Part shown: positions 19,602 to 24,490 of the stretch, piece by piece
Position numbering within the stretch: the first letter of the stretch is position 1
Layout of the letters: the number at the start of each line of letters is the position of its first letter
Notes under the pieces: model-generated
Told to the model about the DNA's origin: nothing
The model's input: only the letters and a program-made list of their open reading frames with translations
The model's database searches: none
Source: an uncultured Oscillospiraceae bacterium
GTDB taxonomy: Bacteria; Bacillota; Clostridia; Oscillospirales; Oscillospiraceae
DNA: 64,000 nucleotides
NCBI GenBank assembly: GCA_947628185.1
Contig: CANQYW010000006.1
Span: 1-64,000 of the forward strand
Direction of reading: 5' to 3'
Position numbers and translations under genes: made by a program

Positions 19602-19955
19602 CTAATTATTGAGGCCAAAGCTCACGGCTATGGCGTTGTCCACCTTTGTCATGAGCTCGTCGTCCACCCGGCCCATGCGCTCCTTGAGGCGCTTTTTGTC
19701 GATGGTGCGTATTTGCTCCAAGAGCACCACGGAGTCCTTGGTGAGACCGAAGGACCTGGCGGAAAGTTCGATGTGGGTCGGCAGACGGGCCTTGCCTATC
19801 TGCGAGGTTATAGCCGCCGCTATGACTGTCGGGCTGTGCTTATTTCCGGTGTCGTTCTGGACGATCAGCACCGGACGCATGCCTCCCTGTTCGCTCCCGA
19901 CTACGGGGCTCAGGTCGGCGTAATAGATGTCTCCACGTTTCACTGGCGCAGGCAC
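19602..19955 (-). CDS. mazF: MazF/EndoA-type mRNA interferase
   Basis: A 117-residue toxin closely resembling Bacillus EndoA. It has [20 protein letters not shown] at the start (including the catalytic arginine), [11 protein letters not shown] in the middle, and [15 protein letters not shown] near the end. EndoA cleaves single-stranded mRNA at short motifs such as UACAU. The start codon is GTG. In Bacillus the antitoxin gene sits directly upstream, but here the 145 bp between alr and mazF hold no antitoxin frame. The toxin is either orphan or paired with a distant gene. Confidence 0.93.
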
Positions 19956-20100
19956 AAAACTTCACTCTCCGACGAATTATTCGTCCGGCAACTTCATATG
20001 TAACCGGGCTGATATAATTCTCTCACAAAGCGGCGCAAATTATACCGGGGGGAAGAAATTCACGCCCCCAGTCCAGTTTATGCCGGGTCAGCGCTGGCCG

Positions 20101-21237
20101 TCACTTGATTTTTGACGGGGCGTAGACCCTGGGGACACGTTTTGAGACGGAGCAGAGGAGTTCATAGGGTATCGTGCCGGCGGTGCGGGCGAGCTCCTCG
20201 ACGCTGGCGTGTTCGCCGAAGATCTCGATAAGGCTCTCAAGATTTACATCCGGCAGATCAGTTAAGTCGATCATGCACATGTCCATGCAGATCCTGCCCC
20301 GCTGGGGGGCCATCCCAGAGGCGGTGGCGAAGGAACAGCGGTTGGAGAGGGAGCGCATGAGCCCGTCGGCGTAGCCTATAGGTATGACGCCCATCCTGGT
20401 GCGGCGGGGCGTTGTGAACACGCCGCCGTAGCTCACGGGCAGGCCCTCGTCGATGTACTTTATGGTGCTGACATGGGTCATGAGGCTCATGCAGGGCCGG
20501 AGGCCCAGCTTGCCGCCGTCCCCGTAGCCGTAGAGGAGGAGTCCCGGTCGAACCATGTCGAGACACATCCCCTCATAGTTTACCACAGCGCCGGAATTTG
20601 CGCAATGGCGTATTTTAAAATTTACGCCGCCTTTTTTTGACACACACTCAATTACCCTCATAAAGAGCTCAAACTGCCCCAGGGTGAAGGCTCTGGCGTC
20701 CTCGCCCTCCTCGTCGGAGAGGGCGAAGTGGGTGTAGATCCCCTCGGGGTCGAGGCCGGGGAGGGTGCAGGCGCTTATTATGTTCTCCACCCCCAGGTCG
20801 AAGTGGCCCCCGGCGCAGAGGAACCCCAGCCGCGACATGCCGGTGTCCACCTTTATGTGGACCCGCAGCGTGCCGCCCAGGGCCGCGGCCACCTTGGAGT
20901 ACTCCCGGGCCTTGGCCTCGCAGGTGACGGTCTGGGTGAGGTCCCGGGCTATGAGCTCCCCGGTGTACTCCCAGGGGGTGTGGCCCAGGATGAGTATAGG
21001 CGTTCCTATTCCCGCCTCCCGGAGCTCCACCGCCTCATCTAAGCAGGACACCGCCAGATACTCCGCCCCCAGGGCCTCCAGCCGTTTTGAGACGGCCACC
21101 GCCCCGTGGCCGTAGGCGTCCGCTTTCACGACGCCCAGGAACTTGCAGCCCTCCGGCAGCCGCGCCCGGATGGCCCTATAATTGTGCTCAATGTTCTCAA
21201 GGCTTATCTCAGCCCATGTCCTCTTTCGCAGATCCAT
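20101..21237 (-). CDS. alr: alanine racemase
   Basis: A 378-residue PLP enzyme that makes D-alanine for peptidoglycan. The PLP lysine is K38 in GVVKADAYGHG. The second catalytic residue, a tyrosine, is in VSYGGVF in the C-terminal half. RICMDMCMIDLTD is the conserved C-terminal barrel motif. It follows a lipoprotein gene by 10 bp and precedes mazF, the usual clostridial and Bacillus gene order. Confidence 0.96.
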   Translation of the reverse strand: MDLRKRTWAEISLENIEHNYRAIRARLPEGCKFLGVVKADAYGHGAVAVSKRLEALGAEYLAVSCLDEAVELREAGIGTPILILGHTPWEYTGELIARDLTQTVTCEAKAREYSKVAAALGGTLRVHIKVDTGMSRLGFLCAGGHFDLGVENIISACTLPGLDPEGIYTHFALSDEEGEDARAFTLGQFELFMRVIECVSKKGGVNFKIRHCANSGAVVNYEGMCLDMVRPGLLLYGYGDGGKLGLRPCMSLMTHVSTIKYIDEGLPVSYGGVFTTPRRTRMGVIPIGYADGLMRSLSNRCSFATASGMAPQRGRICMDMCMIDLTDLPDVNLESLIEIFGEHASVEELARTAGTIPYELLCSVSKRVPRVYAPSKIK

Positions 21238-22771: not shown

Positions 22772-22806
22772 TTGACAGGAGCGGGAAAGTATGTTAAATT
22801 ATTAAC
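22772..22806 (+). promoter_or_regulatory. promoter of the riboswitch-flotillin unit, with a GTTAA-N4-TTAAC palindrome
   Basis: TTGACA at 22772-22777 and a -10 box around 22794-22800 (TTAAAT or TAAATT) with 16-17 bp between. Overlapping the -10 box and start point is a perfect palindrome, GTTAA (22793-22797), ATTA, TTAAC (22802-22806). Its core matches the adhE Rex box. Confidence 0.6.
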
Positions 22807-22934
22807 ACAAACAGGGAGTAGTCGTCCGGGGGGACCCGGATGCGCGTCGCCGTCAGGACGGCCTTTGGCCCGGCGGCGCGGGATCTGACGATCAGACGAG
22901 ACGTTTGCGGCGTTTTGCCGTGAGCGTCTTTTTT
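22807..22934 (+). promoter_or_regulatory. yybP-ykoY (manganese) riboswitch
   Basis: A four-way-junction RNA element. P1 pairs CAAAC (22808-22812) with GTTTG (22903-22907). The hallmark AGGGAGTAG follows P1 at 22813-22821. P2 is TCCGGG/CCCGGA (22825-22830 with 22835-22840). P3 is CGCG-t-CGCCG/CGGCG-g-CGCG (22843-22852 with 22871-22880), with the conserved CGTCA at its inner loop. P4 is TCTGA/TCAGA (22884-22888 with 22892-22896). The 3' strand ends in ACGAGAC, as expected. Members bind Mn2+ where the two conserved loops meet. The downstream gene is a flotillin. Confidence 0.88.
22900..22934 (+). terminator. expression-platform terminator of the manganese riboswitch
   Basis: GACGTTTGCGGC (22900-22911) pairs with GCCGTGAGCGTC (22917-22928), allowing G-U pairs, followed by TTTTTT (22929-22934). 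Its 5' arm uses the same bases that close P1, so terminator and ligand-bound P1 exclude each other. This predicts a switch that turns expression on when manganese binds. Confidence 0.87.
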
Positions 22935-22975
22935 ATTCCCTGGGAGTGAAAAAATATTTTTGAGGAGGAAAAGTC

Positions 22976-24391
22976 ATGCCAAACATCAACATCCCAATAG
23001 GGGCCATCGTCTCCGCGGTGGCGGCGGCGCTGGTCATCGTACTTCTGGTGATGGGGTACTTGAAAGCGCCCCCGGACACGGCCTACATAATCTCGGGCCT
23101 TGGCAAGAAACGCATACTCATCGGCAGGGCGGGGTGGAGGATACCCTTCTTTGAGAGGGTGGATAAGCTCTCCCTTCGGGTGATGCAGGTGGACGTTAAG
23201 ACGAGCGAGGCCGTCCCCACCAACGAGTTCATTAACGTCACCGTGGACGGCGTGGCGAACATCAAGATATCCTCGGACCCCGAGCTCTTAAAGAAGGCCT
23301 CGGAGTCGCTCCTCGGCATGAGCCGCCAGGAGCTCATATCCCTTGTCACCCAGGTGCTGGAGGGCAACATGCGGGAGATCGTGGGCTCCGTGGGCCTTAA
23401 AGAGATGGTCCAGGACCGCCAGGGCGTGGCCAAGAAGATCACCGAGAACGTGGTGCCCGACATGCAGAAACTGGGTATCGAGGTGGTGAACTTCAACATC
23501 CAGAACTTCAAGGACGGCGCCGGGACCATCGAGAACATGGGCATAGACAACGTGGAGCAGATACGCAAGAACGCCCAGATCGCCAAGGCCAACGCCCAGA
23601 GGGACATCGCCATCGCCAACTCCAACGCGGAGCAGGAGGCCAACGCCGTCAAGGTCCAGGCGGAGAAGATGATAGCGGAGCAGAACGCGGAGCTGGCCGT
23701 CCAGCAGGCGGAGATGCGCGTCCGGGCCGACACCAAGCGCGCGGAGGCCGACGCCGCCTACTCCATCCAGCAGGAGGAACAGCGCAAGACCATCGAGGTC
23801 ACCCGCGCCAACGCCGACATCGCCCGCCGCGAGAAGGAGGCGGAGCTGGCGGAGAAGGAGATCGCCCTCAAGGAGCGCAAACTCGACGCGGACATCCGCA
23901 AACAGGCCGACGCCATGAAGTACGAGGCGGAGAAGAAGGCGGAGGCGGAGCTCATACGCCGCCAGCGTGAGGCGGACGCCCAGCGCTATGAGGCGGAGCA
24001 GCAGGCGGAGGCCAGGCGCGCCGAGGCGGAGGCCCTTCGCTACGCCATGGAGCAGGAGGCCGAGGGTATCCGCGCCAAGGGCATAGCGGAGGCGGAGGCC
24101 ATAGAGAAGAAGGCGGAGGCCCAGCGGAAGATGGGCGAGGCGTCCATACTTGAGATGTACCTCAACGCCCTCCCCCTGGTGGTGGGCAACGCCGCAGCGC
24201 CTCTGGCGCAGACGGACAAGATCGTCATGTACGGCGACGGCAACTCCACAAAGCTCGTCCGGGACGTGATGGCCAGCGCCAACCAGATAATCGACGGCGT
24301 GAAGGAGTCCACCGGCATAGACCTCCAGGCGCTCCTGGCGGGCATAATAGGCGGCCGCGCCGCGGCAGCCGAGGAAAGCAAAGCAGAATGA
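22976..24391 (+). CDS. floT: flotillin family protein (SPFH domain)
   Basis: A 471-residue membrane-associated scaffold. One hydrophobic segment lies at about residues 10-30, then an SPFH domain (about 35-200) with the GLGKKRILIGRAGWRIPFFE entry, then a long Ala/Glu coiled coil (about 200-390) rich in EAEA-type repeats. A short hydrophobic tail follows. Flotillins oligomerise at the inner membrane face and organise membrane microdomains. No NfeD partner gene adjoins it. Translation starts after TGAGGAGG. The 5' leader carries a manganese riboswitch, which is unusual for this family. Confidence 0.93.
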   Translation: MPNINIPIGAIVSAVAAALVIVLLVMGYLKAPPDTAYIISGLGKKRILIGRAGWRIPFFERVDKLSLRVMQVDVKTSEAVPTNEFINVTVDGVANIKISSDPELLKKASESLLGMSRQELISLVTQVLEGNMREIVGSVGLKEMVQDRQGVAKKITENVVPDMQKLGIEVVNFNIQNFKDGAGTIENMGIDNVEQIRKNAQIAKANAQRDIAIANSNAEQEANAVKVQAEKMIAEQNAELAVQQAEMRVRADTKRAEADAAYSIQQEEQRKTIEVTRANADIARREKEAELAEKEIALKERKLDADIRKQADAMKYEAEKKAEAELIRRQREADAQRYEAEQQAEARRAEAEALRYAMEQEAEGIRAKGIAEAEAIEKKAEAQRKMGEASILEMYLNALPLVVGNAAAPLAQTDKIVMYGDGNSTKLVRDVMASANQIIDGVKESTGIDLQALLAGIIGGRAAAAEESKAE

Positions 24392-24402
24392 GCATATATG
24401 AG

Positions 24403-24429
24403 ACGGAGCCGTGTTTGCCGCGGCTCCGT
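24403..24429 (+). terminator. flotillin gene terminator
   Basis: ACGGAGCCG (24403-24411) pairs with CGGCTCCGT (24421-24429), followed by TTTC. It lies directly after the flotillin stop codon. Confidence 0.75.
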
Positions 24430-24483
24430 TTCAGTGCGACGCGGCTCCGTCTCAGTGCGACAGTTGCTCCGTCTCAGTGCGAC
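24423..24483. repeat. three tandem copies of an 18-bp sequence
   Basis: GCTCCGTyTCAGTGCGAC occurs at 24423-24440, 24444-24461 and 24466-24483, spaced 21-22 bp. The first copy overlaps the right arm of the flotillin terminator. This looks like slippage duplication of the terminator end. Confidence 0.8.
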
Positions 24484-24490
24484 AGTTAGC

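Follow-up and report, generated by a model that had tools for sequence, protein, structure and literature searches.

Among the yybP-ykoY riboswitches, the basis of metal selection has been described for the elements of Lactococcus lactis (L. lactis) and X. oryzae. Mn2+ is selected by the N7 of an adenosine in loop L3, which is embedded in UCA41AUUC in L. lactis and in ACA48UACU in X. oryzae; the exchange A48U abolishes the stably docked state, and Mn2+ stabilizes helix P1.1 (available text of PMC6754395). According to a review, yybP variants whose ligand has changed are to be expected (available part of PMC7266159). For Bacillus subtilis (B. subtilis), the accessible sections of one study (PMC10550928) place meeY under a Mn riboswitch and report co-immunoprecipitation experiments in which the TerC protein MeeF was associated with both FloT and FloA, and MeeY with FloA; SecDF and FtsH were recovered beside the flotillins as well, and HtpX with MeeF.

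The locus analyzed here lies in a window of 64,000 nucleotides, which is the whole stretch of DNA that was studied. A preliminary description had proposed that a yybP-ykoY riboswitch precedes a flotillin gene at this site. For the analysis, alignment A1 comprised the genus set of 13 leaders located before orthologous flotillin genes, including that of the window's genome. Covariance model R1 was built from 18 clostridial elements (alignment A2), none of which precedes a flotillin gene. The following features were assigned:

22772 to 22800, plus strand: promoter-like arrangement of the sigma-70 type (TTGACA at 22772-22777, a 17-nt spacer, TAAATT at 22795-22800), recognized by eye
22805 to 22934, plus strand: entire putative riboswitch, aptamer and overlapping terminator (R1 match at 22804-22909; alignment A1)
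22808 to 22814, plus strand: 5' strand of P1.1, partner 22902-22907, with A22813 bulged (comparison with relatives, A1)
22814 to 22821, plus strand: L1 motif GGGAGTAG, unchanged in 13 of 13 genus leaders
22823 to 22842, plus strand: P2 hairpin (minimum-energy fold and RNAalifold)
22843 to 22880, plus strand: P3, whose asymmetric loop L3 has 7 nt (22853-22859, UCAGGAC), from folds, alignment and structure papers
22882 to 22893, plus strand: P4 hairpin (minimum-energy fold; a few bases off in the fold of the alignment)
22897 to 22902, plus strand: CGAGAC, the 3' side of the L1 junction, unchanged in 13 of 13 genus leaders
22900 to 22934, plus strand: intrinsic terminator, 22900-22911 pairing with 22917-22928 (hairpin 22900-22928), followed by six T at 22929-22934 (sequence and folds)
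22962 to 22968, plus strand: ribosome-binding site GAGGAGG, recognized by eye
22976 to 24391, plus strand: flotillin-family (SPFH/Band 7) gene, 471 aa (Band_7 match; NCBIfam FloT below its cut-off)

Several parts of the leader are visible by eye, namely AAACAGGGAGTAG, the hairpins P2, P3 and P4, ACGAGACGTTTG, and a terminator that incorporates the 3' strand of P1.1. When 22800-22935 was folded, the minimum-energy structure (-65.3 kcal/mol, z -3.68, with 0 of 200 shuffles as low) contained P2, P3, P4 and the terminator. P1.1 is absent from this fold, which represents the terminator state alone; the evidence for P1.1 is comparison with other elements. Because its 3' strand (22902-22907) doubles as part of the 5' arm of the terminator, the two structures compete. 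The hairpins P2 to P4, the sequence signatures and the terminator reusing the 3' arm of P1 had all been named in the preliminary description and were all recovered. Its P1 was supported by the comparison, but has to be corrected by the bulged A22813, which is invariant across the 13 genus leaders. The P1.1 pair C22808-G22907 of the window is U-A in relatives, and in P1.2 the alignment fold pairs C22897 with G22821. Upstream, the promoter-like TTGACA/TAAATT arrangement is similar in the aligned relatives.

Flotillin matches at E<=0.001 were found in 30 of 60 genomes, the window's included and weak SPFH matches counted, and leader DNA was matched in 15 of the 60, in two of them (G039 and G052) by short stretches only; the others are the 13 genus leaders. 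In G001, leader and gene sit on two contigs, so that we infer their link. The 13 leaders of A1 are invariant at AAACAGGGAGTAG, the CA of L3, CGAGACGTTT, GTGAGCGTC and five T. RNAalifold, applied to A1 without a given structure, returned P1.2, P2, P3, P4 and the terminator. Among its 37 predicted pairs, at least one sequence changed on both sides was seen for 17, and the terminator was kept in all 13 leaders.

At the gathering threshold, no Rfam family matched anywhere in the window. Even with the limit relaxed to E<=10, the yybP-ykoY family, RF00080, did not match the 401-base region that surrounds the leader; nor did it match in the window's genome (83% complete) or in the flotillin leaders tested by cmscan and genome search. 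The preliminary description had taken a missing RF00080 score as grounds for giving up its class assignment, and by its own test the assignment would be refuted. However, in 196 genomes of the class RF00080 matched in 14 and in none above its gathering cut-off, matches preceding MntP genes included; among 99 relatives, 12 had weak matches at E<=1, none above the cut-off. Because clostridial matches before MntP genes fall below it too, the cut-off was treated neither as defining nor as refuting, and the support comes instead from the covariance models built in this analysis. The clostridial sequences below the RF00080 cut-off share the motifs AGGGAGTAGC, GTCGTCATTACGG...CCCGGC and GCGAGAC. Three weak RF00080 matches (L033, L034 and L037), in which the L3 and CGAGAC motifs are missing by eye, were left unused. 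At the leader itself, sub-threshold matches to RF02883 and RF02242 were rejected.

The structure underlying R1 was made by hand and its pairs were tallied; P2 pairs poorly in A2. Of 25 loci tried, 18 fit the trimming pattern, and L069, L071, L032, L041, L035, L036 and L039 were left out. The genes behind the A2 elements encode P-type ATPases, MntP, GDT1, Na_Ca_ex proteins and the M48 peptidases of G262, as assigned by sight with one example per class verified by Pfam. With filters off, R1 gave its best score in the 64 kb at 22804-22909 (31.8 bits; E 1.1e-5, the E-values of such home-built covariance models being rough), and the runner-up reached 15.8 bits. All 12 other genus leaders were recovered by R1 too, with 23.0-30.1 bits; at 9 remoter flotillin loci it detected no element. 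A second model, R2, was built from the 13 genus flotillin leaders themselves, terminator included, and is therefore not independent. The window leader contains P1.1, P1.2, P2, P3 with an asymmetric internal loop, and P4, together with GGGAGUAG of L1 (22814-22821) and the 3' CGAGAC (22897-22902). The bulged A in P1.1 is unusual, occurring in the window's clade but in none of the 18 canonical elements, which counts against the assignment. Nonetheless, an independent model finds the site, the structure covaries, and the L1 and L3 motifs are kept along with the discriminating adenine. We consider the RNA class and the target gene given in the preliminary description sound in substance: the leader is probably a divergent yybP-ykoY (Mn2+) riboswitch of clostridial type, switching transcription of the flotillin gene ON. 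RF00080 seems to leave many clostridial elements unannotated (matches in 14 of 196 genomes versus 156 of 291 with R1, in genome sets that overlap but are not identical and at different thresholds).

The 471-aa protein clearly exceeds the cut-off for Band_7 (PF01145, 89.6 versus 23.6 bits). It stays below the cut-offs for the flotillin C-terminal domain PF15975 (Pfam Flot, 23 versus 27 bits) and for the NCBIfam FloT equivalog NF058507 (270.4 versus 700 bits), and owing to the latter it is named here as a member of the flotillin family and not as a FloT equivalog. NfeD was not found among the three neighbour proteins scanned beside it. A lone flotillin without NfeD, as previously described, thus holds for the SPFH/Band 7 domain and for these three neighbours, but the protein does not reach the FloT cut-offs. 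Short direct repeats around GCTCCGTCTCAGTGCGAC were noted by eye at 24400-24485, just past the stop codon. At 19602-21237 on the minus strand lies what is presumably a MazF/NdoA-like ORF adjoining an alanine racemase-like ORF.

The distribution of the element was followed in the best 80 of 278 flotillin relatives (L104-L183), most of which are MAGs carrying the label Oscillospiraceae or Clostridia, with animal gut as a frequent source; owing to this choice the sample is tilted towards close relatives. Four loci with less than 150 nt upstream (L107, L111, L129 and L144) were set aside. Among the remaining 76 loci from these best 80 of 278, an element lies within 500 nt upstream of the flotillin gene in 50 by R1 and 53 by R2, and 23 have none by either model. 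The element before flotillin genes thus recurs in relatives, and the case named in the preliminary description as speaking against it, an element found only before other genes, does not apply. The link between riboswitch and flotillin spans many Clostridia and is not a peculiarity of one genome. Elsewhere in the 762,478 bases of these loci R1 matched only three times, always before cation transporter genes, namely a Na_Ca_ex exchanger gene in L142 (Pfam) and in L131 (by sight), and a P-type ATPase gene in L138 (Pfam). At all three loci, some 5 kb hold both the flotillin and the transporter gene, and each of the two genes has an element to itself.

Alignment A3 was obtained by fitting the window and 46 of the 50 loci with an R1 element to that model (L131, L138, L142 and L162 were left out). 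In A3, 90.3% of the cells pair versus a shuffled mean of 69.4%, 18 of 23 pairs show double changes, the covariation score is 0.562 versus 0.192, and pairing drops to 20-46% when partners are slid by 1-3 columns; being fitted to R1, A3 leans towards that model, whereas A1 was not fitted. Many flotillin elements outside the genus reach 30-51 bits with R1 and have a canonical P1.1 without the bulge. On a tree of the 76 flotillins, the presence of the R2 element requires about 10 changes, compared with 19.3 when the labels are shuffled (none of 500 shuffles as low). By eye, no partner gene 3' of flotillin is widespread among the element-bearing loci of this set. A manganese-type switch before flotillin genes in this gut bacterium and many of its relatives suggests that these bacteria adjust their membrane organization at high manganese.

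Flotillin genes are not the only SPFH genes behind the element. R2 matched in 22 of 34 genus genomes, and in seven species without a flotillin leader (G020, G029, G003, G026, G025, G007 and G028) the element precedes the gene of a 297-308 aa SPFH protein. The one protein of this second type that was scanned gave 109 bits for Band_7, and its similarity to HflK/HflC was far below the cut-off. Where the interval was read out, element and gene are separated by a small ORF, which has about 50 aa in L092 and L096; the one in L093 is different and has 29 aa. A further element before a gene of this type is found at census locus L328. Other genus elements precede genes for Na_Pi_cotrans (L101), CitMHS (L102) and P-type ATPases in G013 and G023 (L040 and L042). 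The R2 matches L099, L100 and L103 lack GGGAGTA(A/G) and were taken as chance. No element was found at seven remoter SPFH loci, among them L335 of the window's own genome. At L134:5001-7425, an element is followed by a flotillin gene and, after 19 nt, by an HflC-like SPFH gene.

Of 150 family genomes, 90 yielded elements in a census with R1, at least 117 in all, a lower bound because the filters were strict; the window's own element was missed here, in the R1 search of 291 genomes and in one further search. Downstream genes were assigned by tblastn against reference proteins taken from the same loci, the remainder by reading, and one example of most classes was checked with Pfam. The 117 elements precede genes for P-type ATPases (43), MntP (22), CitMHS/NhaD-like proteins (15), Na_Ca_ex (12), OAD_beta (7), flotillins (4), GDT1 (3), Na_Pi_cotrans (3), TetR (2), and one each for an HflC-like SPFH protein, a hydrolase-like protein, AI-2E and an unknown protein, and two have too little downstream sequence. 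The hydrolase-like and unknown proteins (L189 and L272) had no Pfam match. Three genomes carry elements before flotillin and, elsewhere, before another gene: MntP in G332, Na_Ca_ex in G407, and both Na_Pi_cotrans and OAD_beta in G346. Two elements of G262 precede genes of M48 peptidases, L064:572-1417 (minus strand, Pfam) and L078 (by sight), which we take to be HtpX. TetR-type regulator genes follow the elements at L202 (Pfam) and L249. The beta subunit of a sodium-pump decarboxylase, OAD_beta, is encoded behind seven of the 117 (L246, L290, L298, L304, L307, L314 and L329). Together with the CitMHS/NhaD-like (15) and Na_Pi_cotrans (3) targets, these may point to a sodium or pH link of the RNA class. 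Since OAD_beta, CitMHS and Na_Pi_cotrans have no plain link to manganese, the ligand of any given copy is uncertain.

The anatomy of the leader suggests how the switch would work. In the ligand-free state, the 3' strand of P1.1 would go into the terminator and the flotillin gene would be off. Mn2+ bound between L1 and L3 (A22855) would hold P1.1 (22808-22814 with 22902-22907), the terminator would lose its 5' arm, and flotillin would be made. Because a ligand-held P1.1 denies the terminator its 5' arm, we regard the ON direction as highly probable.

A22855 occupies the position of A41 in L. lactis and A48 in X. oryzae, and with the adenine kept, Mn2+ is the likely ligand of the window leader. 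Across 127 census and genus rows (one element occurring twice), the discriminator is A in 126 and G in one, at a contig end. The 47 flotillin rows have 39 A, 5 U and 3 gaps by column; by eye, the gapped rows are A in L125 and U in L128 and L143, where the loop is one base longer, giving 40 A and 7 U overall. The U-type aptamers are L153:4571-4685, L154:2967-3086, L135:1096-1209, L161:4650-4762, L139:11-127, L128:4699-4813 and L143:4611-4725. They fall into two separate groups of the flotillin tree, one of five rows (support 100/100) and one of two (100/99), and we conjecture that they sense another ion. The seven U-type elements, the OAD_beta, CitMHS and Na_Pi_cotrans targets, the expected altered-ligand variants (PMC7266159, as far as its text is available) and a Streptococcus member reported to bind Ca2+ more tightly than Mn2+ (PMC9495176, likewise) would all be in line with an element whose ligand is some other divalent ion (Mg2+, Ca2+ or other), or which reads a broader signal, for example pH; flotillin would then be no Mn2+ gene. 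For the window this is rather improbable, as its adenine and that of 40 of 47 flotillin elements are kept, and at three flotillin loci a nearby Na_Ca_ex or P-type ATPase gene has an element of its own.

That the leader is a different structured leader or terminator with a chance likeness to yybP-ykoY would agree with the missing RF00080 match and the weak sub-threshold matches to other Rfam families, but is very improbable in view of the 16-bit margin of an independent model over the next site in 64 kb, the L1, L3, P1.2 and CGAGAC elements all in register, and the many non-genus flotillin elements with 30-51 bits (R1) and an unbulged canonical P1.1. A relic of a neighbouring transporter, exerting no control of flotillin, is the least credible of the readings: three loci do have a transporter with its own element close by, and the flotillin tree calls for about 10 changes in element presence, but pairing is kept across diverged lineages, the terminator in 13 of 13 genus leaders, and a second SPFH gene type follows the element in seven genus species.

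If the leader is indeed a manganese switch of the flotillin gene, we hypothesize, as did the preliminary description, that flotillin protects or organizes membrane proteins under Mn2+ load. A tentative version, to which we give somewhat less than even credence, is that at high Mn2+ flotillin may help to assemble or stabilize membrane proteins such as exporters, the secretion apparatus and quality-control proteases. The contacts of B. subtilis flotillins with MeeF and MeeY, seen by co-immunoprecipitation, speak for such a tie, and the M48 peptidases behind the G262 elements and the two SPFH families would fit a membrane-quality role under metal excess. In mycobacteria, foci of metal P-ATPases form without flotillin, which opposes flotillin as a general scaffold of these ATPases (available portion of PMC9374683). 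More doubtful still is the broader proposal that SPFH scaffolds, both flotillins and the HflC-like family, form a conserved divalent-metal response arm in gut Clostridia and that two flotillin clades independently swapped the L3 adenine for uracil, a natural counterpart of A41U/A48U, yielding variant yybP aptamers with another metal preference.

In the open-licence literature we found no report of a flotillin under a yybP-ykoY riboswitch, and a mention in the founding papers of 2015 is possible; the two terms occur together only in versions of the TerC paper (PMC10550928). The word flotillin is absent from the riboswitch gene-list papers PMC11477304, PMC3766115 and PMC7266159. The function of bacterial flotillins is debated, and a metal-ion riboswitch offers a defined signal for testing their role, the more so as the element occurs in many lineages and before a second SPFH family. 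Natural discriminator variants provide material for studying metal selection by RNA.

Compared with the transcriptional type of RF00080, exemplified by L. lactis yoaB, the window element has the same L1 GGGAGUAG, 7-nt L3 with a discriminating A, CGAGAC, succession of P1.1, P1.2, P2, P3 and P4, and terminator sharing P1.1, but differs in the extra bulged A of P1.1 and the lack of an RF00080 match. Its downstream gene encodes an SPFH protein in place of a metal exporter, the yybP-ykoY type being familiar chiefly from genes of metal pumps. That protein resembles the flotillins FloT and FloA in its SPFH/Band 7 domain and long Glu/Ala-rich region, but differs in scoring below the Pfam Flot and NCBIfam FloT cut-offs and in having no adjoining NfeD. 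With meeY (ykoY)/TerC of B. subtilis, the locus shares a tie between a Mn riboswitch and flotillins; there, according to the accessible sections of PMC10550928, the tie is physical contact with the product of the riboswitch-controlled gene and the flotillin genes are not placed under a riboswitch, whereas here the flotillin gene itself lies behind the element.
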